Below, piece by piece: positions 2,129 through 18,680 of a stretch of DNA of 20,841 bases (positions are counted from its first letter, which is position 1; the number at the start of each line of letters is the position of its first letter). Position numbers and translations under genes: made by a program. The DNA is from a virus. The notes under the pieces are model-generated. The model saw only the letters and a list, made by a program, of their open reading frames with translations, made no database searches and was not told the DNA's origin. The stretch covers positions 1 through 20,841 of IMG/VR virus record IMGVR_UViG_3300002460_000198; one strand, written 5' to 3'.

Positions 2129-2585
2129 AAAGGCTCACCTCCATTTTTTGATTAGCACTTTCTTTATGTAATGCCGTTACCGATATTGTCGATCCTGAAC
2201 CTATCGAAACCAACCCGAAACCCAAACTTAAATTTCGCATTGCCGTTGATATTCTGCCTGTTCCCTGTAATGTACCGTCTATTTTCATATTAAAAGCCGC
2301 TTCTGCCGATCCTGATGCCAAAAGTCCCTGTAAATAACCCGTATTTGAATTGATACCATAATTTAAAATTGTCGTTTCCGTATTGAAAGGAACTGCCGTA
2401 TCTTGCGCAAATGTATAGAAAGGATTTTGTTCCAAGGGTGAAATGGTATTAACCGTAGCATTTGCCCCGCCTGCCGCCGTATTGACAACCGCATAAATAG
2501 TCGCCGAAGAAATAAGACTAACCCGTTTTGAATATGTAAGATGACTATGTTCCTCCTTCTCAATAGTCGCTGACTGTTCAGGCAC
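2112..2585 (-). CDS. Beta-rich structural protein sharing an AVVNTAA module with the 1006-1896 gene
   Basis: A 157-aa protein. After a charged first 15 residues it contains SATIYAVVNTAAGG, closely similar to SAATLFAVVNTAAAG in the 1006-1896 product. The C-terminal half (TTILNYGINSNTGYLQGLL, IDGTLQGTGRIST, SIGSGSTISVTAL) has the alternating pattern of a small beta-sandwich, as seen in phage head-fibre or tail-fibre decoration domains. The start is a GTG at 2585, overlapping the previous gene's stop by 8 nt, with GGAG 10 nt upstream. It is probably a virion decoration or fibre component; the specific family is not recognised. Confidence 0.65.
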   Translation of the reverse strand: MPEQSATIEKEEHSHLTYSKRVSLISSATIYAVVNTAAGGANATVNTISPLEQNPFYTFAQDTAVPFNTETTILNYGINSNTGYLQGLLASGSAEAAFNMKIDGTLQGTGRISTAMRNLSLGFGLVSIGSGSTISVTALHKESANQKMEVSLFGFYR

Positions 2586-2937
2586 GTTTCAACAACTCCT
2601 TCTCCTTTTTAGTTTGTTGTTCCTGCCTGTCTAAAACTATCCATCTGTAAACTTCATTTATTGACTTTTCTAGACTTGTAAAACCCAAAGACCGTTGCAG
2701 AGCCTTAATTTCCGTCAGGTTGTCGATAATATCCGAAGATTTAGTCGTATCCTGCGCCCAACCTAAAATAGTCTGCAGTTTATCCTGATAAAGATGACTT
2801 TCACCGGAATCAATTTTAAAGTGTGAAATTAAACGTGAATAATTCGGGTCAAACTTCCACACATCGGGGTCCGGGTTTACCAATGATTTTACTTCTGGAC
2901 TTGATTCTGATTCTAATTCTAATTCTGGTTTGTCCAT
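2578..2937 (-). CDS. 119-aa hypothetical protein, first gene of the tail-side module
   Basis: The protein has an acidic, low-complexity start (DKPELELESESSPEV), then a WKFDPNYSRLISHFKID segment and a helical C-terminus rich in Lys, Glu and Gln (YRWIVLDRQEQQTKKEKELL). The ATG at 2937 sits 7 nt after a strong hairpin and U7 tract and has no SD. A GTG at 2949 in the same frame would lie inside the hairpin's 3' arm, so I prefer the ATG. It is the first gene after the glycan cassette. Function unknown; it may be a tail or neck accessory protein. Confidence 0.65.
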   Translation of the reverse strand: MDKPELELESESSPEVKSLVNPDPDVWKFDPNYSRLISHFKIDSGESHLYQDKLQTILGWAQDTTKSSDIIDNLTEIKALQRSLGFTSLEKSINEVYRWIVLDRQEQQTKKEKELLKRA

Positions 2938-2967
2938 AAAAAAAGCCACATACTATTTATATGTGGC
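2938..2967 (-). terminator. Perfect 8-bp hairpin plus U7, immediately before an AUG
   Basis: On the minus strand GCCACATA (2967-2960) pairs perfectly with TATGTGGC (2952-2945) around the 7-nt loop TAAATAG, followed by seven T residues (2944-2938). This is the textbook shape of an intrinsic terminator and ends the glycan cassette. The T tract abuts the ATG at 2937 with no SD between, so it may instead be a structured 5' leader (see findings). Confidence 0.75.
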
Positions 2968-2972
2968 AACCT

Positions 2973-2988
2973 TAGCTTATTTTAGCTT
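2973..2988 (-). promoter_or_regulatory. 16-nt box AAGCTAAAATAAGCTA, copy 2
   Basis: The box AAGCTAAAATAAGCTA is identical to the copy at 18363-18378, lies the same 5 nt before a hairpin, and has the same 7 nt between hairpin and AUG. Its TAAAAT could serve as a -10 hexamer that would place a transcript start just before the hairpin. No good -35 is visible. The first base overlaps the stop codon of the upstream glycosyltransferase. Confidence 0.55.
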
Positions 2989-3692
2989 CAAGTTACTAAA
3001 GAACCTGATTTGATAGGTCTTGTTCCATTCATTATACTACTATAACATTTTTGATAATAGTCACTCGCAATTTTATACTTTTCATTCCAATCGGCAGTTA
3101 ATCTTTCGTGATGTTCAGCCTTATAAAGAATCGACTGGTCTAAATAAGTTAAATAACCTGCCTTATCTATTCTTAAAAGCATCTCCTTTTCCCCAATTGC
3201 CGCTCCTTTTTCAAACTCCTCATCTAAACCACCTACATCCAAAATAGCCTGTCTTGGCAACGAAGCTAATGTGAATTCAATATCAATCGGGTTACATTCA
3301 TAAAAAGAACCATATTCTAAAGTTTGTCTTGGATCAGACCAAACTTGTACTCCATTTTCATATTGGTGACCGATTGCACCTACACAAGCTTTTGGATTAG
3401 CCTCATAATGCACCCAAAACCTCTCTAACGTTGTTGGCTCCATTTCTATCTGATCCTGATAAGAAACCACCAAATCGCCTTTGGCGGCCTTAAATCCAGC
3501 ATTGTAAGCACCATTTAAACGATAAAAGTCACCTTTACGTTTAGGCGGATCGGGAATCCAAACATCAGCATCTTTATACTCAAATGGGGAAACAACTATC
3601 CAAGTAAAATCACTTAACGTCTGACGCTGTAGCGACTTTCGATTTAACTCCAACCCCTGCAATCTTATCGAGGGTGTTATTACGGTTAACAT
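2988..3692 (-). CDS. GT2-like (GT-A fold) glycosyltransferase
   Basis: A 234-aa protein with a GT-A layout. MLTVITPSIR opens the nucleotide-binding strand, followed by LNRKSLQRQTLSDFTWIVV (residues 16-34) and YNAGFKAAKGDLVVSYQDQ (63-81). The metal site is expected at residues 79-81, where it reads QDQ rather than DXD or DD. The acceptor-side segment VGGLDEEFEKGAAIGEKEML (153-172) replaces the common ED motif. No membrane helix follows, so it is a soluble cytoplasmic enzyme. The ATG at 3692 lies inside the upstream small ORF (83-nt overlap). It is the last gene of the glycan cassette, followed by the box-hairpin element. Donor and acceptor cannot be deduced. Confidence 0.8.
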   Translation of the reverse strand: MLTVITPSIRLQGLELNRKSLQRQTLSDFTWIVVSPFEYKDADVWIPDPPKRKGDFYRLNGAYNAGFKAAKGDLVVSYQDQIEMEPTTLERFWVHYEANPKACVGAIGHQYENGVQVWSDPRQTLEYGSFYECNPIDIEFTLASLPRQAILDVGGLDEEFEKGAAIGEKEMLLRIDKAGYLTYLDQSILYKAEHHERLTADWNEKYKIASDYYQKCYSSIMNGTRPIKSGSLVT

Positions 3693-3810
3693 AAGGCAAA
3701 TATGGTTTTATCAATTCCTTTGCCTGTTCCCGTGATATAACACCGGATGCCGCCAAATTGGAAAGTGCCGCAGAAACATTGGCAAAGATTTGTGATTGTT
3801 CCAATTCCAA
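3610..3810 (-). CDS. 66-aa helical hypothetical protein
   Basis: The protein reads MELEQSQIFANVSAALSNLA and then ASGVISREQAKELIKPYLPY, a probable short helical hairpin with a basic, Thr/Ser-rich tail. The start is a TTG at 3810, with the strong SD AAGGAGG 9 nt upstream inside the end of the previous gene. Its last 83 nt overlap the start of the next glycosyltransferase in another frame, unusually long in this compact operon. I do not recognise it. Its place between two glycosyltransferases suggests an accessory role, but that is only context. Confidence 0.5.
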   Translation of the reverse strand: MELEQSQIFANVSAALSNLAASGVISREQAKELIKPYLPYVNRNNTLDKIAGVGVKSKVATASDVK

Positions 3811-3811
3811 A

Positions 3812-4603
3812 CTATTCCACCTCCTTTATTATAGTTTCAAGTCTATGTTTCCAAGTATGATTCTCAAGGATATGCTTTCTAGCATTCTGTATTATCATTT
3901 GTCTTACTTCAGGATGAGATAAATAATAATCAATTTTATCTTTGGCCTCTTGTATATCTTTAAAACCTATATAATGTACGCCTTCGGTAGCATATTTGTC
4001 TAAAAGTGGATGATAATCATTTAAAAGACATCCTGATGCCATACTTTCAAAGAACCGGCAATTTAAAAGTGGTATTTCACCTTCAAGTTGAGGCATAACA
4101 TTAAGAATTATTTTTGATTGTGACATATATTTCGGATAATCCTGCGGTTTGCAGTTAATAATTGTTGGTTGCAATTCTTGTAAAACAGCCCGTCTAAATT
4201 TATAACTTGGTATGTCATCTGTTCCTCCTATAAAAGAAACATCAAGGTTTTCTGGCAAATTCCACTTATAATGAATTGTAGGTTCTGCGGCCATTGGAAT
4301 ATTTATTGTGTTTTTAGGATATTTTTCAACCATATGGTCGGAAACTACAAAAATTTGGTCAACATCATAGTATTGAATATTTTTAGCCTGATGAGTTGTA
4401 TCATCAATTTCCCAATAAGCATTTTTTTTACCATCTTTAAATAATCCTTTATTATGAATCGAATCTATATTTAAAAGTAAATCCGCCTCACTCCATCTTG
4501 GTTGCGGGATTAACTCGACATCAGTCGTATGTAAAGCGGCAGTTATTAAATAACCGGGTGAATGAAGATCAAGTCTATCTGAATTTATACCTAGTTTAAA
4601 CAT
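3812..4603 (-). CDS. CgeB-like / group 1 glycosyltransferase
   Basis: A 263-aa protein. The C-terminal half carries the donor-binding signature of CgeB/Glyco_trans_1_2 enzymes: ILNVMPQLEGEIPLLNCRFF followed by ESMASGCLLNDY (about residues 166-197), then a helical tail with ENHTWKHRLETII. The N-terminal half holds short strands such as DLLLNIDSIHNKGLF and IFVVSDHMVEKYP, as in a GT-B fold. It is soluble, with no signal peptide. The ATG at 4603 overlaps the upstream acetyltransferase stop by 8 nt. It would transfer a sugar from a nucleotide donor to an unknown acceptor. Fold and class are fairly certain; specificity is not. Confidence 0.8.
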   Translation of the reverse strand: MFKLGINSDRLDLHSPGYLITAALHTTDVELIPQPRWSEADLLLNIDSIHNKGLFKDGKKNAYWEIDDTTHQAKNIQYYDVDQIFVVSDHMVEKYPKNTINIPMAAEPTIHYKWNLPENLDVSFIGGTDDIPSYKFRRAVLQELQPTIINCKPQDYPKYMSQSKIILNVMPQLEGEIPLLNCRFFESMASGCLLNDYHPLLDKYATEGVHYIGFKDIQEAKDKIDYYLSHPEVRQMIIQNARKHILENHTWKHRLETIIKEVE

Positions 4604-5048
4604 ATTTCATCACTAGCATTTCATTTTCTTTACCAATTTTTTTAAATCCTAGTCCTTCATAAAAATGAATAGCATGATTATTATTTGGTAAAGTTCTCAA
4701 ATAAAGAACTCTAAACTTGCCCAATTTAATAATTTCTCTTACCGCTTGACTCATCAATCCTGGAAATCCTGATACCCCACGTAGGACATTATCTAATTCC
4801 CAACGGCCTTTATATTTATTTATTCCTACATGACCAATTTTTCTACCATTAGGTGTAATTACCCAACAAAGATCACGTGTAGGATTTAAAGCAACAGTTC
4901 GCCACCAAGATTTAGTGCTTTTAAAAGTAACTGGTTTTTTATCCCTAAACCACTTACCACTTTTATTGCGCCAACGCATCATTAACCTTAAATCGCTATC
5001 GGTTGGCCGTTTAATGTACTTTAAACAACCTCTAATACTTTCTTGCAT
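4596..5048 (-). CDS. GNAT-family N-acetyltransferase, likely aminosugar-modifying
   Basis: A 150-aa protein of typical GNAT length. Visible hallmarks are a mid-protein core (CWVITPNGRKIGHVGINKY), the region RGVSGFPGLMSQAV where the acetyl-CoA pyrophosphate loop is expected (about residues 90-103), and the C-terminal NNNHAIHFYEGLGFKKIG (122-139), the conserved N..A..FYE.LGF segment. It lies directly after a DegT aminotransferase with a 28-nt overlap, the arrangement of PseH/perosamine-type pathways in which the new amino group is acetylated. That makes a nucleotide-linked aminosugar its likely substrate, by inference. The ATG at 5048 has little SD, consistent with coupling to the upstream gene. 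Confidence 0.8.
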   Translation of the reverse strand: MQESIRGCLKYIKRPTDSDLRLMMRWRNKSGKWFRDKKPVTFKSTKSWWRTVALNPTRDLCWVITPNGRKIGHVGINKYKGRWELDNVLRGVSGFPGLMSQAVREIIKLGKFRVLYLRTLPNNNHAIHFYEGLGFKKIGKENEMLVMKYV

Positions 5049-6094
5049 ATAAAATTAATTTGTTTTTCTGTCAACTTAACCCCACTTGGTAAGTTTATTC
5101 CATGATGACCAATATAGTATGAATTAAGTGTTCTATATTTTGTCTTATACATTCCCATTTCAGAAATCGGATAAAAGAAAGGTCTGGTATCAATACCATT
5201 TTCCCAAAGATATTTTCTGACTTTATCCCTATTTTTAACTATAATTGACGGCATCCAATAATTAGGTTGTGCATATTCATAATTTGGGTTCATTTCACCT
5301 AATCCACCTTCTTGATACCATTGGGCTATTTGTTTCTTTTTAGCAAGTAACTCATCAATATGCCTTAATTGTCCTAAACCTAATGCTCCTTGAATTTCAC
5401 TCATTTTAGCCATATAACCCATTTCATCATGCCAAAACTCTTTTGTTGTAGAACGACCATTTGTAGCTAATTTCCAAATCTTATCTGCAACTTCTTTGTT
5501 ATCGGTTACAGCCATACCACCTTCACCAATTGCTAGTAATTTTGCACCTTGAAAGGAAAAGCATCCAACATCTCCCCAAGTTCCCGAATGTTTCTCTCTA
5601 TAAAAAGAACCAACCGCCGGACAAGCATCTTCTATCACTTTTAAGTTATACATACGGGCAATGTTACAAATAACTTCCATCATCGGTGCATTGCCATACA
5701 TCCAAACAGGCATTACAGCCTTAGTGCGTGATGTAATAGCCTGCTTAAATGCTTCTATGTCGAGTGTCCATGTTTTAGGATCAATATCTACTAAAATAGG
5801 TATTGCGCCCGCTTGGGCGATTACATTGGCCGTAACAACGTATCCTAAGTCCGGCGTAATAACCTCGTCACCCTTACCAACACCTAAAGCTAAAAGCGCC
5901 AAAAATAAAGCATTCGTACCATTAGTCAGGGGAATAGCATATTTACTGCCAACATACTTTGCAAATTCTTCGGTAAATTTAGAAACATAATAGTTAAAGT
6001 CTTTTGTTCCCATTTTGTCTAAAGCATCCCGAACAAATAAATATTCTAAATCACTAAGTTCAGTCCCAGATGTTAAGATCGGTTTTCTAGCCAT
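5021..6094 (-). CDS. DegT/DnrJ/EryC1 family sugar aminotransferase, perosamine-synthase-like
   Basis: A PLP-dependent enzyme of 357 aa that would convert a keto-sugar nucleotide to an amino sugar, probably with glutamate as donor. Fold-type I landmarks are present: LTNGTNALFLALLALGVG (residues 56-73), PDLGYVVTANVI (81-92), the PLP-ring aspartate in VIEDACPAVGS (D156) and the Schiff-base lysine in FQGAKLLAIGEGG (K185). The C-terminal domain has DTRPFFYPI. Length and motifs fit GDP-perosamine synthase-like members best, though other DegT substrates remain possible. I chose the ATG at 6094, 8 nt after GGAG, over a GTG at 6103 that overlaps the SD. It overlaps the upstream GT2 by 22 nt and the downstream acetyltransferase by 28 nt. 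Confidence 0.9.
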   Translation of the reverse strand: MARKPILTSGTELSDLEYLFVRDALDKMGTKDFNYYVSKFTEEFAKYVGSKYAIPLTNGTNALFLALLALGVGKGDEVITPDLGYVVTANVIAQAGAIPILVDIDPKTWTLDIEAFKQAITSRTKAVMPVWMYGNAPMMEVICNIARMYNLKVIEDACPAVGSFYREKHSGTWGDVGCFSFQGAKLLAIGEGGMAVTDNKEVADKIWKLATNGRSTTKEFWHDEMGYMAKMSEIQGALGLGQLRHIDELLAKKKQIAQWYQEGGLGEMNPNYEYAQPNYWMPSIIVKNRDKVRKYLWENGIDTRPFFYPISEMGMYKTKYRTLNSYYIGHHGINLPSGVKLTEKQINFICKKVLEVV

Positions 6095-6792
6095 TCTTCC
6101 CACTCCTTTAAAAAATTAACCCGTGATTCCTGCTGAACTACGTTTTCGTTATACTGCCGTCTATCATATTCCAACTGACCATCTTCAGGTTTAAAACCTA
6201 AAGTTGCGTGCTTAATAACACAAAATGGGTTATATAGATTAACAAATCCTGCTTTTAAACACCTTAACCCTAACCCTGCATCCTCATAATACATCTGCCC
6301 ATAATGCGGGAGTCCGCCTACTTTTTGCCAAACTTCTTTTGACATAAAAGGCGTATTGGAATAATCAACCTTTTGTACTTCATCAAGAGGCGGTACGGGA
6401 ATTAAAGTTGTGCCGCTAAACATACCGCCCCTTGATAGTACCTCCTCACCCCGAAGTAAATGTGCCGCAAATACTCCGGCGTTTGGAGTTTTCTCATAAA
6501 GTTCAATTTGATTTGATAGCCAATTGGGTGTTACTTCCATATCATCATTTAAGATTTGAATGTATTTACCTTTTGCCCGCATACAACCCATATTCCACGC
6601 CTGTCCTACAGGAATAGAATTATTGTAGGTAATATATTCTAAATCTTGATTATCACACCATTCGTTCGTATCATCTTTAGAAACATCATCAACAACGATA
6701 ATTTCGTAATCGTCAGTGTATTGTCTTATCGAATTGATAAGATTTTCTAAATATGGTCGTCTATCCTTTGTTGCGATTATGATACTCGTCAT
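6073..6792 (-). CDS. GT2 family glycosyltransferase
   Basis: A 239-aa GT-A enzyme with the full classical signature: TSIIIATKDRRPYLENLI at the N-terminus, IIVVDDVSKDDT (31-42), AWNMGCMRAKGKYIQILNDD with the metal-binding NDD at 82-84, and the acceptor-side ED in YYEDAGLGLRCLKAGF (168-183). It lacks C-terminal membrane helices, so it is probably cytosolic. The ATG at 6792 lies within the preceding 56-aa ORF (32-nt overlap). It is an inverting transferase by family; donor and acceptor are unknown, though a sugar made by the neighbouring DegT/GNAT pair is reasonable. Confidence 0.9.
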   Translation of the reverse strand: MTSIIIATKDRRPYLENLINSIRQYTDDYEIIVVDDVSKDDTNEWCDNQDLEYITYNNSIPVGQAWNMGCMRAKGKYIQILNDDMEVTPNWLSNQIELYEKTPNAGVFAAHLLRGEEVLSRGGMFSGTTLIPVPPLDEVQKVDYSNTPFMSKEVWQKVGGLPHYGQMYYEDAGLGLRCLKAGFVNLYNPFCVIKHATLGFKPEDGQLEYDRRQYNENVVQQESRVNFLKEWEEWLENRS

Positions 6793-6931
6793 AAAATTTT
6801 GTATACCAAGCTAATGCCAAATATCTTTCATCCCAAATTGCTCTTTTGCCGCCATCTGCTTTACATTGGCTACAAACTTTTATATGCTCTTTTTTAATAA
6901 ACTCTTTAAATTCTTCTGGCGTTAAATTCAT
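6761..6931 (-). CDS. 56-aa CxxC hypothetical protein
   Basis: This small gene starts MNLTPEEFKEFIKK and contains a single CxxC (VCSQCK, residues 19-24), followed by a charged and aromatic helix (LALAWYTKFYDEYH). The ATG (6931) forms a perfect ATGA overlap with the stop of the transketolase C-half (6928), and its 3' end overlaps the next glycosyltransferase start. One CxxC might bind metal as a dimer, but no complete zinc site is visible. The chained overlaps and clean reading frame support a real gene. Function unknown. Confidence 0.6.
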   Translation of the reverse strand: MNLTPEEFKEFIKKEHIKVCSQCKADGGKRAIWDERYLALAWYTKFYDEYHNRNKG

Positions 6932-7377
6932 CTTGATAACGAAATGAAATCGGGTTTATCACATTCAATTGCCTTTTTAATTTCTTTCTCATTATTCGGC
7001 CAATGCTGATGGATATTTTTAAAACAACTAAAAAGACGTTTAGCATCTTCCGCATGATGCGTAAAACCTAAATTGCCATATTCTTTATCACGCCCTATAC
7101 CCACAAGTTTTACAAGTATTTGTTCATGGTCTAAATAAATTCTAATTCCTTCCCATGCCCGATAAAGATGCGGGGTTATCGAATAGACAAAAGGGATTTT
7201 CCCCGATAATGCCAACCCTACCGCTATATCAACCATTGCCTGTTCTGATGCTTCGCAATTAATTATCTGTTTATCATCAGGCTTAAAAAAACCGTAACCT
7301 ACGCCACCAAGAAGTAAAACAATGTCTTTATTCTTCTGCATTTGTTTCAATAGTTCGTCTCTAAATAACTTTCTCAT
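6928..7377 (-). CDS. Transketolase-like C-terminal subunit (pyrimidine-binding domain only)
   Basis: A 149-aa protein matching the pyrimidine-binding domain of transketolase/DXS enzymes. NCEASEQAMVDIAVGLALSG (residues 40-59) carries the Glu (E45) expected to contact the ThDP aminopyrimidine ring, and EYGNLGFTHHAEDAKRLF (99-116) is the conserved THH segment. It ends DFISLSR, where this domain normally ends, so the usual third domain (Transketolase_C) is absent. Stand-alone C-subunits are commonly about 300 aa, making this minimal. It overlaps the N-half gene by 17 nt, ensuring joint synthesis of an expected heteromer. In sugar clusters such enzymes transfer two-carbon units; the product here is unknown. 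Confidence 0.85.
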   Translation of the reverse strand: MRKLFRDELLKQMQKNKDIVLLLGGVGYGFFKPDDKQIINCEASEQAMVDIAVGLALSGKIPFVYSITPHLYRAWEGIRIYLDHEQILVKLVGIGRDKEYGNLGFTHHAEDAKRLFSCFKNIHQHWPNNEKEIKKAIECDKPDFISLSR

Positions 7378-7897
7378 AATGTGCCCCCAAACCTTTTAAT
7401 GGTTTATTACTTGTCTTTCTAAATTCAACAGGGAACCCAAACGACATAATCCTATCCCGCAATTGCTTACGATCAATTTTTTCCATTCCACCAAATCCAT
7501 TAGCATTAACATATATTTTTAAGTTAAATGCTTTTAGTTTCTTGGCAAGACGTAAGGTTTCCCACATTGAACCTTCACACCACTCTCCATCGGAGGTTAA
7601 ACAATATACGTTGTCTTTAGTTGCTAACGCTTTGCCCAAACTTATCGGAAATCCATGTCCCAATGAACCATACATTTGTGCATGGACACCAAATTCTTCA
7701 AATAAAGTTTCAGCATTTAAACCAGTGTATTTCTCAACAACTACATAATATGCAAGTCCCGCATGGCCTGATGATACTACTACTTCATCCAAAGAATATA
7801 TTTCATCTAAAATATCAATAGCAGATAAGTTTGAGCCTACATGCGCAAGCCCGTACTTTTTGGATATTTCAAGAATTCGCTTTTTGAGTTGATTCAT
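7361..7897 (-). CDS. Transketolase-like N-terminal subunit (diphosphate-binding domain)
   Basis: A 178-aa protein with the ThDP diphosphate domain in short form: GLAHVGSNLSAIDILDEIY (16-34), SSGHAGLAYY (42-51), YGSLGHGFPISLGKAL (76-91) and the cofactor motif SDGEWCEGSMWE (102-113) closed by NANGFG (131-136). The motif reads SDGE where GDGE is usual, but its Asp and the Asn of NANG are kept. Typical separate N-subunits are about 270 aa, so helices have been trimmed. It overlaps the upstream reductase by 29 nt and the C-subunit by 17 nt. Together the two halves should form one ThDP site. Activity is plausible but unproven. Confidence 0.85.
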   Translation of the reverse strand: MNQLKKRILEISKKYGLAHVGSNLSAIDILDEIYSLDEVVVSSGHAGLAYYVVVEKYTGLNAETLFEEFGVHAQMYGSLGHGFPISLGKALATKDNVYCLTSDGEWCEGSMWETLRLAKKLKAFNLKIYVNANGFGGMEKIDRKQLRDRIMSFGFPVEFRKTSNKPLKGLGAHYEKVI

Positions 7898-8792
7898 ACC
7901 ATTTAATTGTTTCCCGTATTCCCCTTTGAAAACTTGTAGTTGCTACAAACCCAAATTCACGTTTGGCCTTAGATACATCGAGATTACGTCTTGGTTGTCC
8001 ATCTGGTTGTGTCTTATTCCAAACTATCACACCCTTGTAGCCAATAATATCTTTGATAGTTTCCGCCAAATCTTTAATTGATATTTCCATGCCACTTCCT
8101 AAATTAATAGGTTCAGGCTTATCATAATGTTCCATAGCATCAACTATCCCCCGTGCCGCATCCTCAACATAAAGAAACTCACGTGTTGGTGTACCCGTTC
8201 CCCATAAAGTCACTTTATCCAAACTTAGTTTCTTGGCCTCATAGAATTTAGTTATCATAGCCGGAATAACGTGACTTGATTCCGAGTCAAAATTATCACC
8301 TAGACCATAAAGGTTTACTTGTAGAAGGTGGATTGAACTAAAGCCATATTGTTGTCTAGCCGCCTGTCCTTGAACCAAAAGCATTTTCTTAGCTAAACCA
8401 TACGGTGCGTTAGTTTCTTCGGGATAACCTGCCCATAAGCGATGTTCTTTAAAAGGTGTTGGTGTGTATTTAGGATAAGAACAAATAGTACCTACAGTTA
8501 CAAACTTCTTAATCTTTGCTTTTCGTGCTTCTTCAAACAACTGCGTACCCATTATTAGGTTCTCATAAAAAAAATCATAAGGATATTTACGATTAGCTCC
8601 TATCCCACCGACTTTGGCGGCAAGGTGTATGATTACTTCGCAATTCTGAGCTACCTTTTTACAGTCTTTAACATTTAATAAATCGAATCCTGCTTTATGC
8701 CCATACTTAATAACGTAATGTTTACGTTTTAAAAGTTCTTCAACTAGGTATTTGCCCAAAAAGCCTTCTGAGCCGGTTACGCCAACAACCAT
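7869..8792 (-). CDS. fcl: GDP-L-fucose synthase-like SDR epimerase/reductase
   Basis: A 307-aa extended SDR with GVTGSEGFLG (G7, G10, G13) for NADP binding and the catalytic YGLAK (Y131, K135). Family-specific segments are VGTICSYPKYTPTPF with the active-site Cys (C104), NLYGLGDNFDSESSHVIPA with the catalytic His (H174), and GTGTPTREFLYVEDAA. These match GDP-L-fucose synthase (Fcl/WcaG), which epimerises and reduces GDP-4-keto-6-deoxy-D-mannose to GDP-L-fucose. Length is normal. The ATG at 8792 has AAGGAG 8 nt upstream, inside the end of the preceding gene (16-nt overlap). No GDP-mannose dehydratase lies in the window, so its substrate must come from the host or from outside this fragment. 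Confidence 0.88.
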   Translation of the reverse strand: MVVGVTGSEGFLGKYLVEELLKRKHYVIKYGHKAGFDLLNVKDCKKVAQNCEVIIHLAAKVGGIGANRKYPYDFFYENLIMGTQLFEEARKAKIKKFVTVGTICSYPKYTPTPFKEHRLWAGYPEETNAPYGLAKKMLLVQGQAARQQYGFSSIHLLQVNLYGLGDNFDSESSHVIPAMITKFYEAKKLSLDKVTLWGTGTPTREFLYVEDAARGIVDAMEHYDKPEPINLGSGMEISIKDLAETIKDIIGYKGVIVWNKTQPDGQPRRNLDVSKAKREFGFVATTSFQRGIRETIKWYESTQKANS

Positions 8793-9718
8793 TTTTCAAT
8801 CTCCTTTGCATAGTGTAAGTGGGTCCAGTTGTCTAAAACATATTGGCGGGAATTAGCGTAAATATTTCGTTGATTAAAAACATTTTTAATATCTTTTGGA
8901 TCAGGTTCTGCAATATCCCCAAATTTACTTTCTCCAATATATTCACAAGCCTTGTAGTTGTCAGACATAACTATTACTGGCACATTACACGCCATTGCCT
9001 CTAAAACCGTCCTTTGCCCGCCACTATCGTTAGTTGCAGTTGAAACAATACATTCTGAGGCGTTGTAGAAATACGGCATAGCAGATTGTGAAAGAATTAT
9101 CGGTACGGTCATACAGCCTGCATCCTGCGCCCACTGGAGGCACTGTGGCTCATGTGGTTGGTATCTACCGATACATACACCATCTTTTCCAAAAGCCTGT
9201 GCAAAAAGGTCTTGGCGCTTCCACATACCAAATACAGCCGGATAGAGAGCTTTGAATATTTTAGGTTGTGGATATGGTTTGAATATGTCGGTGTTTATTC
9301 CAAAGGCTACTTTAGCGTTGTAACCTTGGTCTATGAATTTTTGGTTAATGTATTTATTCTCGGTAAAGATAATGTCGTATTCTTTACCTCTTGGGTGTTC
9401 TTCTGCGCCACCCGCAAAACAAAGGCCAACTTTAGCTTCTGATTCTTTTACTCTTTCAAACAAAGGCTGATTTATTTGCCCCCATAAAATAACATTATCT
9501 GGGCTGAATTGATAAAGACTTTCAATTGCAAAATTATCATCAGAGTAAGCATTTACAAGAATATTGTCCCGTCTATAACCTATTTCCTGATCTGATTTAA
9601 GTATAATTTCAACTTCGTGTTTCTTCCCTAACTCACTTAATGCCCAATACAAACCGTCTTGCCAAGAAACAAGATCGTAAATTGGTATTTCAATATCCCA
9701 AAGAAGACAGAGTTTCAT
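8777..9718 (-). CDS. GT4-like glycosyltransferase (GT-B fold)
   Basis: A 313-aa protein. The C-terminal domain has the retaining GT-B donor signature in DSGGQRTVLEAMACNVPVIV (231-250), preceded by MPYFYNASECIVSTATN and ending with LDNWTHLHYAKEIEKWLL. The N-terminal domain (MKLCLLWDIEIPIYDLVSW, NVILWGQINQPLFERV, VGLCFAGGAEEHPRG) is the acceptor half. It contains no membrane segment. The ATG at 9718 forms an ATGA overlap with the upstream 83-aa gene. It resembles glycosyltransferases of phage and surface-glycan clusters. Sugar specificity cannot be read from sequence. Confidence 0.82.
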   Translation of the reverse strand: MKLCLLWDIEIPIYDLVSWQDGLYWALSELGKKHEVEIILKSDQEIGYRRDNILVNAYSDDNFAIESLYQFSPDNVILWGQINQPLFERVKESEAKVGLCFAGGAEEHPRGKEYDIIFTENKYINQKFIDQGYNAKVAFGINTDIFKPYPQPKIFKALYPAVFGMWKRQDLFAQAFGKDGVCIGRYQPHEPQCLQWAQDAGCMTVPIILSQSAMPYFYNASECIVSTATNDSGGQRTVLEAMACNVPVIVMSDNYKACEYIGESKFGDIAEPDPKDIKNVFNQRNIYANSRQYVLDNWTHLHYAKEIEKWLLA

Positions 9719-9966
9719 ACTTTTAATATCTTACGTTTCCTTATCCAAGTCTTTGGTATTTTATGCAGATTAACAAACTTATCCTCATATTTATTCCAAC
9801 CACTGGCAATAACAATCATTTCTTTAGAATCTTTTAATAACCACCCAACTTCTCGAACAATCCAATTCCCGTATTCCTCATCTTCTGCCCAATCAAGTGC
9901 TTCTTGTTTTTCAAACCAGTTAGGATTTGTTAAAGCATCGCACCATTCAATATAAATTAATTTCAT
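9715..9966 (-). CDS. 83-aa hypothetical phage protein
   Basis: A small Trp-rich protein. It opens KLIYIEWCDALTNPNWFEKQ and has a central EVGWLLKDSKEMIVIASGWN followed by a basic tail. The strand-turn-strand look (VGWLLKDSKEMIVIAS) resembles small uncharacterised phage proteins with an IEW...GYV.KE...I.IS pattern. It is coupled at both ends by ATGA overlaps, so it is translated with the two flanking glycosyltransferase genes. I know no function for it; regulation or target recognition is possible but unsupported. Confidence 0.6.
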   Translation of the reverse strand: MKLIYIEWCDALTNPNWFEKQEALDWAEDEEYGNWIVREVGWLLKDSKEMIVIASGWNKYEDKFVNLHKIPKTWIRKRKILKV

Positions 9967-10541
9967 TTGTTAAACTCCTCATCCCACGATTTTGCCACTT
10001 CAGCCCACGCGAACTTACCCTTAGCCCAAGCCATCATAGATTCACGTTCTGTCTCATCTTGGTTTAATTGGTTAACTAACGCCTTAATATACGTTTCCTG
10101 CCATTCTTTTGTGCGTACTTTATAAGGCTCGCCTAACGGAACTTTAATACCATACTGCACAGTTTCCTTTAAGGCAGCATAGTCGGAAACCACAGGTATA
10201 CAACCCCCAATTTGCGCTCGCATAGCTGATATACAGGATATTTCGCCAAAGTCCGTAGGATACGCCCAAATACCGCTTTCTTCTATAGCTTTTTGGAGTT
10301 CTTTATGCCCGACACGGCCTACATGGGTTATTCCATCCTGTTGCATCATTTCGTTTATTTTTTTCTTCCATGCCTGACGTTCGGGGTTATTTGAATGTAC
10401 AAAGTCAAACAAATTCCAGCCGTAATAACATTTTAGAGTAACATCGGGTACTTGTTTCTTAATTTCAGGCCACATTTGAAGAAGCCATTCTAAACCACGG
10501 TCATAACTCGAGAGCCAGATTAGTTGTTTAGGATTTCTCAT
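9963..10541 (-). CDS. C-terminal (donor-binding) half of a split GT4 glycosyltransferase
   Basis: A 192-aa protein equal to one Rossmann domain of GT-B enzymes. It begins RNPKQLIWLSSYDRGLEWLL, normally the first strand of the C-terminal domain just after the interdomain linker, then HVGRVGHKELQKAIEESGIW and AYPTDFGEISCISAMRAQIG (93-112). The matching N-terminal domain is the C-terminal part of the gene at 11047-12798, with a full unrelated gene between. In the EX7E donor motif the first Glu is present (E100) but the second position is Arg (R108). The ATG overlaps the upstream stop as ATGA. Alone it lacks an acceptor domain, so it probably works with the other half, or is decaying. Confidence 0.82.
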   Translation of the reverse strand: MRNPKQLIWLSSYDRGLEWLLQMWPEIKKQVPDVTLKCYYGWNLFDFVHSNNPERQAWKKKINEMMQQDGITHVGRVGHKELQKAIEESGIWAYPTDFGEISCISAMRAQIGGCIPVVSDYAALKETVQYGIKVPLGEPYKVRTKEWQETYIKALVNQLNQDETERESMMAWAKGKFAWAEVAKSWDEEFNK

Positions 10542-11050
10542 ATAAATAACCTTTTAATAATAAACCTATGTATAAACTTTGGCAGTCCTAAAAATCTACC
10601 TTGTAATGCCGCCCGTGAATATGCCATATCAAGATAAAGTTGTGCCTCCATCTTAAAATCATGCTGTCCTAATTGATTAACTGTAATATGTGCCATTCGT
10701 TCTAATACTTCCCGCACAATTACATGTCCTGGATACTTCAAAGCCATTAAAGATGTAAAATGAAACATTTGCTGTAATTCATCGCCTACAAAGCGGATAT
10801 TAAAGTATTCGTGTTTGCTAGGTTCAAAATCCTTAACTCTATGTTTCTTTTTATGCTTATGTTCTTTTTGAAAGAACTTTTCTACTTGATTCGCATTTTT
10901 AGGATCACAACGAATAATAAAACCAGTAGTATCTAAAAAGAAGTGCCAGATTGGATCTTTGTAAAGCACTTTCTCTCGTAGTCGTTCGACAGCATCAAGT
11001 TTTGTAAATGCTGATTGGGCGGTATAGATAACAAACGCCGCTACTTTCAT
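10538..11050 (-). CDS. 170-aa unknown protein lying between two GT4 halves
   Basis: The ATG at 11050 (MKVAAFVIYTAQSAF) has GGAG 7 nt upstream and an ATGA overlap with the preceding gene. An upstream in-frame start at 11077 lies inside that gene and lacks an SD. The protein has a short beta-like N-terminus (HFFLDTTGFIIRC), a His/Lys-rich linker (KEHKHKKKHRVK) and a long helical region (LQQMFHFTSLMALKYPGHV, VLERMAHITVNQLG). I see no HNH, GIY-YIG or LAGLIDADG motif that would mark a homing endonuclease. It separates the acceptor and donor domains of one glycosyltransferase. It may contact them or be a simple insertion. Function unknown. Confidence 0.65.
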   Translation of the reverse strand: MKVAAFVIYTAQSAFTKLDAVERLREKVLYKDPIWHFFLDTTGFIIRCDPKNANQVEKFFQKEHKHKKKHRVKDFEPSKHEYFNIRFVGDELQQMFHFTSLMALKYPGHVIVREVLERMAHITVNQLGQHDFKMEAQLYLDMAYSRAALQGRFLGLPKFIHRFIIKRLFI

Positions 11051-12798
11051 AAATCCACTCCATTTGAACTTATCCACATCTTAGAATCGGGAATATTCGG
11101 CAATCTCTCCCTATGCCATTTAGAAAGTACGATAACTTTATCAATTTGCTTTAGGCGTTCTTCAGTAAACTCGGTTGAGTTGGGAATATCATGTAGCCAT
11201 ACATATCTCTTTTTAGCCTTTGGCATCCCGTCCATAATCCTGCGCCAGATAATTAAAATGTTAAAAGTATCTTTCATATTGAAATTAAAGTAAGGTTCGT
11301 ACTTAACTCCGTCATATTCGCCGCTATCTGCGCCGGGGTCGGCATAAACAGTCACTCTCCAGCCTAATTTGGCTAATTCTCGTGAAAGATAGATAACGGC
11401 TTCCTCCGAACCGCCAATTCCACCGTCAATACTCTTTGGCGACCAAGGTTCAAAGCCCGGACCGCAGAAAATAGTTATCTCATTATCTTTGTGTCTGCGT
11501 TCGGGTAAGTAAACCTGTCTAATCTCGGCCATAATGGGTTCGTTTTCAGTTCCTGTAGGCATAGCCTGAATAAGTGCCGGTATTTTACCCCTATCGCCTA
11601 TTTGCTCAAGGTATTTGGCTAAATAGACAACACTTTGGACAGCTTTGTTAGCGGCAATTACGGATTGCACATAAACTATGCGTTTTTCCATTTCTTCCGT
11701 TTCTAAAAGATTCTTTAATTGTGTTGCGGCCTCAAGTGCGGTATCAAACTTACCCGTGTTAATTCCAATATGATAAGCAATTTCCAAAGCCCTTGCTTTT
11801 AAGTCACGGGGATTGATTATCATAGTTGTCATCGGAACCGGCATTTTGGTTGCAATATCAAGCCACCTTTGCGCCCTGTCCCAATTGGTAGCCTGTGCAT
11901 AATGGGCGGCTATTGAAAGATAAGTTGACGGATACTGATCGGCTTCGTCTAGCGCTTTTAAAAGACATTCAATTGATTTTTCGGGCTGTTGCTTAATACG
12001 GAAACATTCAGAAAGATATTCCCAACAGGCCGCTCTCTCATCTGCCCATCCGCTCATAGACGTTGAGTGTTCCTGTGGTGAAAGATATTCCATGAAACAA
12101 ATCATTGCCTGATCTGTGTATTTTTCGGTTTCGTGGCGTTTGTCAAAGTAAGCCTTGCCTAAATAGTAAACAGTACGGGGGTCTTTGCGCTGTTCTTTTT
12201 TAACCTGTGCCTCAAGAATACGGATATTGCGCTCCAAATTAAATGCCATACGTTTGTCATCGGTCAGGTGAACAACTATCAACTCCTGAATGGCGATATT
12301 TTTGGCATTTTCCAAAATAATAGTTTCGTGGATTGCACCTACCCAACGGCCACGTTTGTTGCGGAATAAACGTTCCCGCATATGTTCGATAATAATTTCT
12401 TTGATTTTGCCTTCGGGGGTCAGTTCGACCTGATAAAGATACCGGCAAAAGATAAGGTCGACATTCTGCGCTAAGGCATTGTCGGCTATTGTCCTTAAAT
12501 TTGCGCCTAATTGCAGAACGTCATCTACATCAAGCCAGATAATATAATCATATTCTGCGGGGATTTGATCTAAGTTGAAGTTTCTAGCTTTTGCAAAGTC
12601 ATCTTCCCATTTAGTATAGGAAACATTTACGTTATATAAACTGGCTATTTCTTCTAGCGGTTTTACCTTTTGCTCTTGGGTGATAGTCAAGAATGCGCCA
12701 TCTACGAATTGCGCAACGTGCATTAAGCATCGTTTCAGCATCTCAGGCGGCTCATCCGCTTTTAATATCATCCCAAGCGCAATTTTCGCTTGGTTCAT
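11047..12798 (-). CDS. GT2 glycosyltransferase - TPR - GT4 N-domain fusion
   Basis: A 583-aa three-part protein. Residues about 1-160 are a GT2 domain of the TPR-linked type: LKADEPPEMLKRCL, WEDDFAKARNFNL, the metal site WLDVDD (88-93) and VGAIHETI (153-160). Residues about 170-420 are TPR-like helical pairs (TVYYLGKAYFDKRH, YLSECFRIKQQPEKSIECLL). Residues about 438-583 are the N-terminal Rossmann domain of a GT4 enzyme, with DGGIGGSEEAVIYLSRELAK (458-477), KRYVWLHDIP (530-539), VIVLSKWHRERL and SSNGVDL at the very end. The donor domain that should follow is encoded 506 nt further on. The GT2 unit looks intact. The acceptor is unknown. Confidence 0.88.
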   Translation of the reverse strand: MNQAKIALGMILKADEPPEMLKRCLMHVAQFVDGAFLTITQEQKVKPLEEIASLYNVNVSYTKWEDDFAKARNFNLDQIPAEYDYIIWLDVDDVLQLGANLRTIADNALAQNVDLIFCRYLYQVELTPEGKIKEIIIEHMRERLFRNKRGRWVGAIHETIILENAKNIAIQELIVVHLTDDKRMAFNLERNIRILEAQVKKEQRKDPRTVYYLGKAYFDKRHETEKYTDQAMICFMEYLSPQEHSTSMSGWADERAACWEYLSECFRIKQQPEKSIECLLKALDEADQYPSTYLSIAAHYAQATNWDRAQRWLDIATKMPVPMTTMIINPRDLKARALEIAYHIGINTGKFDTALEAATQLKNLLETEEMEKRIVYVQSVIAANKAVQSVVYLAKYLEQIGDRGKIPALIQAMPTGTENEPIMAEIRQVYLPERRHKDNEITIFCGPGFEPWSPKSIDGGIGGSEEAVIYLSRELAKLGWRVTVYADPGADSGEYDGVKYEPYFNFNMKDTFNILIIWRRIMDGMPKAKKRYVWLHDIPNSTEFTEERLKQIDKVIVLSKWHRERLPNIPDSKMWISSNGVDL

Positions 12799-12805
12799 AA
12801 AATTG

Positions 12806-13105
12806 TTAAGGCGTTCCTGTTACTGTTGCATAAAAGGAACGCTTATTCTGATCTATAAACTTTGATACGGGTACGGATTGTGCAATACAGGCTTTTACCC
12901 ACAAATCGCTAAAATCTTCTGAAATAACTCCCGCTACTGCTTGTAACCATTTCTTTTCAAGTTCTGTAATCCTAGTTCTGCCTGTTGCATCACTTACCTT
13001 GGAAGCATAATACTCACGCTTCATATCGTTTAACTTTTTATTAGCGCTTCGTGTACGTGAAGCAAACCAAGACCATTCAAGCTCACCTAATGTTGTACCA
13101 CTCAT
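12806..13105 (-). CDS. 99-aa hypothetical protein, possible virion component
   Basis: A 99-aa protein containing ELEWSWFASRTRSANKKLND and, from about residue 47, ELEKKWLQAVAGVISEDFSD followed by KFIDQNKRSFYATVTGTP. The central W-rich helix plus DLW segment resembles small phage structural proteins, but I cannot assign a family. Its ATG overlaps the previous stop as ATGA and the stop lies 7 nt before the first glycosyltransferase gene, so it is cotranscribed with the glycan cassette. Head completion or adaptor is a guess based on position after the capsid gene. Confidence 0.6.
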   Translation of the reverse strand: MSGTTLGELEWSWFASRTRSANKKLNDMKREYYASKVSDATGRTRITELEKKWLQAVAGVISEDFSDLWVKACIAQSVPVSKFIDQNKRSFYATVTGTP

Positions 13106-16091: not shown

Positions 16092-16327
16092 ATTCGTTTC
16101 ACCGCCTCTCCTTCACCTCGTTCGATTTTGGTCAAAGCCTGTGCCTCCTCTATCTGCATATCTACCCATCCTTTAATCTCCAGAACTATTTTTTTCATCA
16201 TTGACAACTTTCTATGTGCCGTTAATTCTTCCTGATCGCTTTTGAAGGCCTGTGGGTCAACAAAGTCTAATTTAACCCTGCTGTCCAGCTCCTCCCATAA
16301 AAGCTCCCATCCCTGGGATTTGACCAT
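16088..16327 (-). CDS. 79-aa helical protein overlapping the portal 3' end
   Basis: From the ATG at 16327 the product begins MVKSQGWELLWEELDSRVKL, then KSDQEELTAHRKLSMMKKIV and a helical tail (WVDMQIEEAQALTKIERGEG). This GW.LL.EEL...I pattern followed by coiled helices matches small proteins commonly encoded right after phage portal genes. The same frame is open further back to 16501, but that part only mirrors the Gln/Gly-rich portal tail. The overlap with portal is 56 nt. Function unknown. Confidence 0.6.
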   Translation of the reverse strand: MVKSQGWELLWEELDSRVKLDFVDPQAFKSDQEELTAHRKLSMMKKIVLEIKGWVDMQIEEAQALTKIERGEGEAVKRI

Positions 16328-18323
16328 TTCCTGCAGCTGGAAGCCCTTGCGCTGGCGCTCCTGCTCCTGCCCCGTTAACTGGCGCCCCTTGGATTGGTTG
16401 TCCTGTTGTTGGGTCAATTTGTCCTCCTTCCATTGGATTCGGTTGCAATTGTTCAAAGTATTTATCGGCATCTTTAAATCCGGCATCTTCAAAAGTATCA
16501 ACTAATAAATCTTTAACTTTAACCTTGTAACCTTCTTGTGCCAAGAGCGCGACAGCCTGTTGATTATTCATTAGTAACTCAACGGCTTTTTGTTTACCTG
16601 CCTTTTCATTCTGAAGCGCACCCAGCGCCATAGATTCAACATCCGCTATATAGTCATAATTACCCTTGAGGTCTTTAGGCTCAACTATAAGTGTACCGGC
16701 ACGACCCGATTGGTCTAATTGAAATTTGCTCTCCTGACCAAATTCACCTTCATTAACAGGATAAAGCGGTGTAGTCATTTCATTTACATCCATCTCAGGG
16801 TTTTCTGCCAAAAGTTGTATTGATTCATCCGTCAATCCCTGCCCGTCAAGACCTTGTTCCTTAAAGAATTCAATAGCATCCTTACCGACAATACGCATCA
16901 CATAACCCTGCTTGTCTTTCTTGCTAATTAACATTTTTTGATTCATCGTATGCCACAACATTACTTGACGTTGAATTGCCTCGGCTAAGAATATCTGGTT
17001 AAAATTATCTCTTGCACGTTGCTCTGTAGATACCTGTCTTACCTCAGTTGCGGTTTTATCCGTTCCTGATAACGGCCCGGGGATATTGGATACCCCCAAA
17101 GACGATTCGCCTAACGCTTCCTGTTCTGCCGCAACTAAAGTTGAGTAGATTTGGGTGAATTGCTGTAAGTTATTGGAGGATGTCTCGTAAGGCACAACAT
17201 CGGTTGCCGGATCATTCATTATCCACTTTGCACCTGAGATAAACTCAATGGTGTGCATACGGACACCTGATGCTCTTATCTTCAAAGGTGTCATCAATTT
17301 TAAATTTGCTTCATCAACAGCATGGGAAAGGAAAGCATTATTCGCTTTAAATAGTTTCATAACAGGTTCAACCTCAGAAACCCCATAAAGATCATCATCG
17401 ACCTGATAGTAACGAAGCATCACAATGGGAATTTCGTTATTGCCGTAAGGATTATCAATATCTCTCAAAACAATGCCGTATTTAGGAGCGAAGGTTATCC
17501 ATCTATCCCTGCGGTATTCTGTGACTATTTCAATTGTCTTAAAAACCCTGTCATCTCCTATAGCATCAGGTAAACCCAAGAGTTGTTTTGAAATTGACTG
17601 TCTGCGGTTATCACGCCTGTCGCCACCCTTTGATTTGGTTGACTCACGAATAAGGGACTCCTTAAGCTCTTTTAAGCCCTTGTAAATTGGTCCTGTGGAG
17701 GACGCGTCATTGACAGCTTCCAATTCCTGAAAAGTTACCCACTCCCGTACATCAAAATAATTACAATCCTCTATACACGTTGCCGTAGGATCAGGGCCGC
17801 AGTCGGCATTGGCAAGCGCACGGGAGCTTGGTCCGTCAAATACACATTTACCGTCACGCTTTTCATATCGCCATTTCTCAAGTTTGAATCCTGCGCCGTA
17901 CTTTCTAGTACGTTGTGAGGTCATTGCCCACTTACCAAGCTGTGTGCCAGAATAATTATCGTTATCCCATTGAAAAGATATAAGTTCGTTGTTAATCTTT
18001 GCACCTAATACATCTCCGCCCTCACGCGGTTCCATACGTCCACGTAGTTTGTTGGCAAATAATCGTGCATCTTTCTCGGTTATGAATGTAAATGTCCGTG
18101 GATCGGCTATAACAGCCTGATAAGGCCAAGTGTCGGGGTTAATATAGGTGCGATGCATCTTGTCAACGTCATCAAATCCGTCTTCTCTAATCTTTCGTTG
18201 ATCGGTATCATTGAAAGCATCATCATAATGACGTTTAACTTCATTGAAGCCCTGATCCGGCGCACCCTGAGGTTCGGTAATATCTGTAAATACTTTTTGT
18301 TTTTGAACTTTGCCTTTTGCCAT
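16272..18323 (-). CDS. Portal protein
   Basis: A 683-aa protein of P22-type portal length, forming the dodecameric DNA channel and docking site for terminase. Recognisable segments are FNEVKRHYDDAFND near the N-terminus, PRTFTFITEKDARLFANKLR, TSQRTRKYGAGFKLEKWRYE, YGNNEIPIVMLRYYQVDDDL, SEVEPVMKLFKANNAFLSHA and SNIPGPLSGTDKTATEVRQV, typical of large portal proteins. The C-terminal 60 residues are Gly/Gln/Pro-rich and probably disordered. The ATG at 18323 has no SD and sits 7 nt after a hairpin with U6. Its position between terminase and scaffold supports the call; I cannot name the exact portal family. Confidence 0.85.
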   Translation of the reverse strand: MAKGKVQKQKVFTDITEPQGAPDQGFNEVKRHYDDAFNDTDQRKIREDGFDDVDKMHRTYINPDTWPYQAVIADPRTFTFITEKDARLFANKLRGRMEPREGGDVLGAKINNELISFQWDNDNYSGTQLGKWAMTSQRTRKYGAGFKLEKWRYEKRDGKCVFDGPSSRALANADCGPDPTATCIEDCNYFDVREWVTFQELEAVNDASSTGPIYKGLKELKESLIRESTKSKGGDRRDNRRQSISKQLLGLPDAIGDDRVFKTIEIVTEYRRDRWITFAPKYGIVLRDIDNPYGNNEIPIVMLRYYQVDDDLYGVSEVEPVMKLFKANNAFLSHAVDEANLKLMTPLKIRASGVRMHTIEFISGAKWIMNDPATDVVPYETSSNNLQQFTQIYSTLVAAEQEALGESSLGVSNIPGPLSGTDKTATEVRQVSTEQRARDNFNQIFLAEAIQRQVMLWHTMNQKMLISKKDKQGYVMRIVGKDAIEFFKEQGLDGQGLTDESIQLLAENPEMDVNEMTTPLYPVNEGEFGQESKFQLDQSGRAGTLIVEPKDLKGNYDYIADVESMALGALQNEKAGKQKAVELLMNNQQAVALLAQEGYKVKVKDLLVDTFEDAGFKDADKYFEQLQPNPMEGGQIDPTTGQPIQGAPVNGAGAGAPAQGLPAAGNGQIPGMGAFMGGAGQQG

Positions 18324-18357
18324 AAAAAATGCGCCACAACATATTAAGTTATGACGC
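18324..18357 (-). terminator. 10-bp hairpin plus U6, immediately before the portal AUG
   Basis: GCGTCATAAC (18357-18348) pairs over its full length with GTTGTGGCGC (18340-18331), with three G-U pairs, around the 7-nt loop TTAATAT; then A and six T residues lead straight into ATG. It has the shape of an intrinsic terminator behind the terminase genes, yet also the same geometry as the element at 2938-2967. Confidence 0.65.
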
Positions 18358-18361
18358 CAAA

Positions 18362-18390
18362 CTAGCTTATTTTAGCTTTATCTAGCTTTT
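18362..18390 (-). promoter_or_regulatory. 16-nt box AAGCTAAAATAAGCTA, copy 1, with a third phased AAGCTA
   Basis: The exact 16-mer lies at 18378-18363. Upstream, AAAGCTAG extends it to three AAGCTA hexamers spaced 10-11 nt apart, about one helical turn. The hexamer TAAAAT within it could be a -10 site. The box stands 5 nt before the hairpin, as in copy 2. It may be a late promoter or a protein-binding site. Confidence 0.55.
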
Positions 18391-18404
18391 ATCTTATAAT
18401 ACTA

Positions 18405-18680
18405 CTATTGCTCACTTTCAACAATAGTTGCTATTTCCATTTTTCTACTTTTCGCTCCCTGTACTGTCATTGTACGCCCTTTATTGATGAAAATACGCAC
18501 TTCCCCCCATCCACCATTCCAAGCGACGTCATGTAAGGCGATTATAGCCTCTCTTATAACCTCCCATGATACTTGGGTCAGCTTTTGTGTCTCGTAAATT
18601 AGGTATAATTCGGGCGAAAATGCTTTTAGAAGTTCAATGAAGTTTTGCTCGTTTGCCGATTGTTCAGCAGGCTGATCCAT
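18405..18680 (-). CDS. 91-aa hypothetical protein between terminase and portal
   Basis: A mostly helical N-terminus (NEQNFIELLKAFSPELYLIY, VSWEVIREAIIALHDVAW) is followed by GGWGEVRIFINKGRTMTVQG, a short beta segment. No enzyme motif is visible. The ATG follows the terminase stop by 1 nt (TAATATG) with a weak GGGA upstream. It ends 81 nt before portal, the last gene before the box-hairpin element. Probably translated with terminase; function unknown. Confidence 0.65.
   Translation of the reverse strand: MDQPAEQSANEQNFIELLKAFSPELYLIYETQKLTQVSWEVIREAIIALHDVAWNGGWGEVRIFINKGRTMTVQGAKSRKMEIATIVESEQ

Follow-up and report, generated by a model that had tools for sequence, protein, structure and literature searches.

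Putative transcription-attenuation leaders before late-gene units in a clade of uncultivated tailed phages

Two leader units in the window

The window is the whole stretch of DNA analyzed here, 20,841 nucleotides of the IMG/VR virus record IMGVR_UViG_3300002460_000198 (positions 1 to 20,841). Two of its minus-strand genes are preceded by the same compact unit (Table 1). As the initial annotation had placed them, the two copies stand at the starts of the portal–capsid and tail-side modules; the gene starting at 18323 encodes the portal protein and that starting at 2937 a protein of 119 aa. The portal protein matches PHROG 332/1216 and, weakly, the Pfam families Head-tail_con and SU10_portal. 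The capsid protein of the window falls in Pfam SU10_MCP. The region from the capsid module to the second unit (3000–13100, minus strand) has a run of genes that look like glycosyltransferase and sugar-nucleotide-type genes, and related genomes have similar sugar-type genes in the same region.

Table 1. Positions of the leader units and their downstream genes in the window.
Feature	Positions	Strand	Basis or remark
Putative −35 TTGAAA, portal leader promoter	18416..18421	−	Placed by relatives, most with TTGACA; 5/6 consensus match
Putative −10 TATAAG, copy 1	18393..18398	−	Sequence; 17-nt spacer to −35
Leader hairpin, copy 1	18357..18385	−	Template fit; family covariation; holds 16-mer 18378–18363
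Predicted intrinsic terminator hairpin, copy 1	18331..18357	−	Ranked top of the window's terminator-like sites
U-tract ATTTTTT, copy 1, ends at start codon	18324..18330	−	Sequence
Portal gene, 683 aa, first of portal–capsid module	16272..18323	−	PHROG and Pfam matches
Putative −10 TATAAT, copy 2, without a good −35	3031..3036	−	Sequence, shared ATAGTAGTAT; weak
Leader hairpin, copy 2	2967..2995	−	Template fit; holds 16-mer 2988–2973
Predicted intrinsic terminator hairpin, copy 2	2945..2967	−	Terminator scan of the window
U-tract TTTTTTT, copy 2, ends at start codon	2938..2944	−	Sequence
119-aa gene heading tail-side module	2578..2937	−	Element also present at homologues in G001, G003, G011 and G012

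The 16-mer AAGCTAAAATAAGCTA has two exact occurrences in the window, both on the minus strand. Each is followed by a gap of exactly 5 nt, a hairpin, and 7 U-rich nt that end at the ATG; the sequence confirms this arrangement, first described in the initial annotation, at both sites. The hairpin after the gap has 10 bp and a 7-nt loop in copy 1. In copy 2 it has either 8 bp with a 7-nt loop or 9 bp with a 5-nt loop. These two are the strongest of 15 terminator-like sites in the window.

Rather than being a box of its own, the 16-mer is the stem-loop AGCT-AAAATA-AGCT (P2 and its loop) plus one A on each side, and it forms the upper part of a hairpin of approximately 28 nt that adjoins the intrinsic terminator. 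A second helix, P1, pairs around the 16-mer in both copies. P2 and its loop are identical in the two copies, and all five P1 pairs differ. Copy 1 has P1 CTAGA/TTTGG and the internal-loop strands L1 TAA and L2 AG; copy 2 has P1 TAACT/GGTTG, L1 TGA and L2 AA, and its L1 doubles as the stop codon of the upstream gene. Both hairpins fit the family template in 9/9 pairs (score 19).

No further copy of the 16-mer with up to two mismatches is present elsewhere in the record. With up to three mismatches there are four matches against 0.54 expected, a number reached in 0 of 100 shuffles. The 16-mer was rejected as a conserved word, and its exact matches in IMG/VR are unrelated except those in L003 and L025, which are the same phage.

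Promoters were called as consensus matches in records that are fragments. The string ATAGTAGTAT(T)ATAA is common to both window sites around the putative −10. The initial annotation had also stressed that neither gene has an SD motif and that most neighbors do. A simple motif scan of 27 starts in the window found an SD-like motif before only approximately 6–7 of them. Its absence from the other 20 or so makes an SD-free start ordinary in this genome.

The leader plan in related phages

There are 35 portal loci in IMG/VR, and the relatives are 36–51% identical to the window portal. The portal had no match among 50,697 records of cultured phages, and a search of GTDB genomes with the portal and the MCP for a host gave no match. 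In the MCP-bearing records MW202497 and HTVC106P, no such leader unit was seen in the stretches read.

Besides the window, 23 portal loci of this uncultivated SU10-capsid phage clade share the leader plan. It usually consists of a sigma70-like promoter, a short leader, the hairpin, the terminator, a U-tract and the ATG. The promoter is usually of the TTGACA type, approximately 17 nt from the −10. The first bases of the terminator are the last bases of P1. The U-tract mostly holds 6–9 T (5 in a few), and the ATG follows 0–19 nt on. Most copies have the form expected of an intrinsic terminator, a stable stem followed directly by 6–9 T. Stem sequences are unrelated between phages; what they have in common is an A before P2, a purine after P2 and an A-rich loop. 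The preservation of architecture under changing stems, first noted from the two window copies, thus extends much further than these two. A lack of conserved copies in relatives would, by its own terms, have refuted the initial annotation; their presence supports both its selection on structure and its paired terminator/start switch.

A different suggestion was that TAAAAT within the 16-mer is the −10 of a phage promoter, with transcription starting at the hairpin. The hexamer is −10-like and is found at both window sites. It is conserved in no relative, where another stem-loop takes its place (GCGG-AAAAA-CCGC, TAC-GAAAA-GTA or GCGG-AGCAC-CCGC), usually downstream of a better promoter, which in most relatives is of the TTGACA type. 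We consider this promoter very improbable, and the 16-mer belongs instead to a transcribed hairpin, as its P2 stem-loop.

The element is dispensable within the clade, since at least seven portal relatives lack it; in most of these the gene is preceded by a promoter alone. The portals of L039 and its relatives keep the promoter and the start codon and are without the element, which makes the element a detachable module. In five portal leaders (L034, L036, L038, L041 and L049), the outer terminator encloses a further hairpin, which has a U-tract of its own. L007 was rejected as a member; its terminator follows a capsid-like gene, and no real ORF lies downstream. A further subclass with a three-pair P2 and TAGAA loops was observed at L139:3572, L139:15527 and L135:2449.

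The element is repeated before several genes in some genomes. Whole records were searched for copies with a covariance model combined with a composite scan. Copy numbers were six for G014, approximately six for G003, three or four for G008 and two for G018; G011 and G012 each have several. Just as in the window, the two copies in G001 have the same P2 and loop but a different P1. The genes behind the element encode portals, homologues of the 119-aa protein, tail-like proteins, a glutamine-rich protein and small membrane proteins. Judged by position and content, these are probably late-type functions, and the majority fall in no named family. Homologues of the 119-aa gene in G002, G004, G013, G014, G015 and G018 are without the element.

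Covariation and linkage of the parts

Thirteen hairpin copies of equal length align without gaps, with 94% of cells paired, and all nine pairs show two-sided changes. The covariation score of this alignment is 0.915, compared with 0.240 for shuffled and at most 0.148 for slid alignments, figures that are flattered because alignments A2 and A5 were built from copies of one length with hand-assigned loop classes. The same picture, subject to the same reading, is given by 27 copies (90.5% paired, score 0.904 versus 0.228). RNAalifold suggests a sixth P1 pair, in which case the internal loop may be 2×1.

The covariance model R1 recovers many relatives and extra copies. It scores the two window copies at 12.7 and 9.7 bits, short of significance, and their membership in the hairpin family rests on template, position and context. 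Rfam gave no relevant match in the window or in 19 element loci. Exact-motif scans for two other loop classes returned only copies already known and chance matches.

A composite scan for promoter, terminator and start found 46 sites in 932 kb, compared with 13 in a control sequence of twice the length. A hairpin geometry score of at least 18 was reached by 35% of the promoter- or start-associated terminators and by 3% of 200 other terminators from the same genomes (P = 4e-10). Both window sites exceed all but a handful of these others, several of which look like further members. When terminators were chosen by the hairpin alone, TTGAC lay upstream of 84% versus 17% (P = 7e-14), and an ORF starting with ATG began within 45 nt of 91% versus 18% (P = 1e-15). 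Hairpin, promoter, terminator and start codon are thus statistically linked. The selection by hairpin alone is the strongest evidence, because each feature is tested with the others left free.

These figures bear on two other readings. The units could be ordinary terminators of upstream operons in a compact genome, with the hairpin and the nearness of the start codon being coincidental. The stems are indeed good intrinsic terminators and the upstream genes run in the same direction, and G011 has a promoter–terminator pair without the hairpin before a tRNA-like gene (approximately 16382, minus strand). This reading predicts neither a hairpin that covaries, nor its constant position relative to the terminator, nor a promoter upstream of it, and we regard it as quite unlikely.

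Alternatively, each unit could be a small-RNA gene, or a 5′ element for stabilization or translation, with its place before an ATG being secondary. Promoter, hairpin and terminator within approximately 60–100 nt are the anatomy of a small-RNA gene, although attenuated leaders release such RNAs too. The excess of ORF starts behind hairpin-bearing terminators argues against a separate small-RNA gene. So does the lack of other room for a promoter: none fits between terminator and ATG, which means that polymerase has to pass the terminator to transcribe the gene. As for translation, the initial annotation had proposed a U-rich, SD-free translated leader. This role of the U-tract is not supported. 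It always adjoins the hairpin, and its distance to the ATG varies from 0 to approximately 36 nt; some copies have an SD motif further downstream, and SD-free starts are common in this genome anyway. The L039-type portals argue that the element is not needed for translation start. An RNA gene or 5′ element of this kind is therefore unlikely.

A proposed attenuation mechanism and its known counterparts

We propose, with a probability of roughly 0.6, that the element is a transcription-attenuation (antitermination) leader before late-gene units of this clade. A constitutive promoter of host type would start a short transcript, the 5′ end of which would fold into the hairpin of P1, a small internal loop, P2 and the A-rich loop, followed by the terminator that begins with the last bases of P1. 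RNA polymerase would then halt in the U-tract, no further than the start codon, and short terminated RNAs would be made by default. During late infection, a factor acting in trans, most probably an RNA-binding protein of the phage, would recognize P2 and its loop and allow transcription to continue into the gene for the portal, tail or membrane protein. Release could occur in two ways. P1 might be held closed, which would keep the base of the terminator stem from pairing, or the factor might ride with polymerase. Control at the level of elongation appears well supported by the anatomy; the working terminator, the default-off state, the existence of a factor and the choice of release route are parts that we infer.

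For 15 of 18 copies, the P1-closed state lies 0.4–7.5 kcal/mol above the minimum-energy fold, and in 10 of those 15 all five P1 pairs are lost to the terminator. Hairpin and terminator overlap mostly by 3–5 nt in well-scoring copies. The overlap in the window copies is only 1–2 nt, so the two structures can largely coexist there and strict mutual exclusion is weak. Predicted energies and overlap together fit a default-on brake, released by a stabilizer of the hairpin or with the hairpin as a landing site. The nested terminators of the five portal leaders hint at a processive factor that rides with polymerase, because simple competition for the base of the outer stem would leave an inner terminator intact.

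Loop similarity is higher among copies of one genome than across genomes (permutation P = 0.0002), and the same holds for P2 arms (P = 0.001). The likeness of loops is as expected for a co-evolving, phage-specific trans factor, and shared ancestry or duplication could give the same. The CAT_RBD domain (PF03123) was absent from 20 phage records, although the host might encode one, and the NusG-type domain (PF02357) was absent from the same number of records, which are fragments. Comparison of gene content gave no clear candidate for the factor.

Two observations concern the neighboring terminase region. A gene of approximately 90–130 aa lies between terminase and portal (18405–18680 in the window, with counterparts elsewhere) in all 21 genomes or records compared; its window copy matches no Pfam or PHROG family. 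The ORF of the terminase large subunit in L004 (2348–4948, 866 aa) looks split by an intein-like insert (CLTEDTEVLTETGWQLI ... NTAGAW).

That no candidate RNA-binding protein was found would suit a switch in cis, in which the hairpin acts on RNA polymerase itself or binds a small ligand as a riboswitch does. HK022 put is an RNA structure of two stem-loops and approximately 70 nt that acts without protein in early operons, and putL, like the hairpin described here, lies near the (here inferred) 5′ end of the transcript (PMC9378689). Both are RNA structures close behind a phage promoter, and put defeats terminators. The single 28-nt hairpin before a terminator is far below put in size, however, and has no large conserved loop of the aptamer type. 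Its sequence is hardly conserved save for the two positions flanking P2, and its loops differ between genomes. A cis switch without a phage protein thus seems unlikely.

Returning to attenuation with a trans factor, we tentatively suggest that the units belong to an undescribed class of antitermination guided by an RNA hairpin. It would be a late regulon of up to approximately six units per genome, served by one phage factor whose loop specificity drifts between phages. If this is true, these phages would time their late genes through the elongation of transcripts from several separate promoters, and through neither a late sigma factor nor a phage polymerase nor one Q-type terminator. The late switch would then be based on RNA and distributed over the genome, its cognate factor could be tested, and its members would form a compact collection of RNA–protein pairs that diverge naturally. 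Its signature, independent of sequence, could locate late operons in uncultivated viruses.

Several known systems share parts of this design. The boxB of lambda N/nut is a small stem with a purine-rich pentaloop, and some loops here are exactly GAAAA (G012, G018 and L005). Here, however, no boxA was noticed, there is an extra P1 helix with an internal loop, loops vary widely between genomes, and the terminator is directly adjacent. At lambda pR′–tR′, an active promoter makes a short terminated leader RNA and Q releases the downstream genes by antitermination. The proposed purpose of the leader is similar, but factors of the Q type are loaded on promoter-proximal DNA, whereas the conserved feature here is an RNA hairpin that is repeated before several genes. 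AlpA-type control likewise has an active promoter, a short terminated leader RNA and release by antitermination (PMC7969949).

The RAT elements of the BglG/LicT/SacY and NagY antiterminators are hairpins of approximately 29 nt, the 3′ part of which overlaps the 5′ arm of a terminator, so that the two structures exclude each other (PMC3369936, PMC9981650). Size and layout are very similar here, with a short internal-loop hairpin near the promoter and its 3′ foot overlapping the terminator. The differences are the absence of a CAT domain from these records and one internal loop region instead of two. The overlap here is mostly 2–5 nt in relatives and only 1–2 nt in the window, and several minimum-energy folds keep both structures. 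In the dfn/mln leader of Bacillus velezensis, the antitermination factor LoaP needs a small hairpin upstream of an intrinsic terminator (PMC12691694), an arrangement also present here. LoaP, however, is a NusG paralogue, none of which was found in these records, and the dfn hairpin has a UNCG-type loop and serves chromosomal antibiotic operons instead of phage late genes. The layout is thus known from attenuation leaders; what appears to be new is its combination with a putative factor for which the records searched gave no CAT_RBD or NusG candidate and with a hairpin that has no Rfam match.
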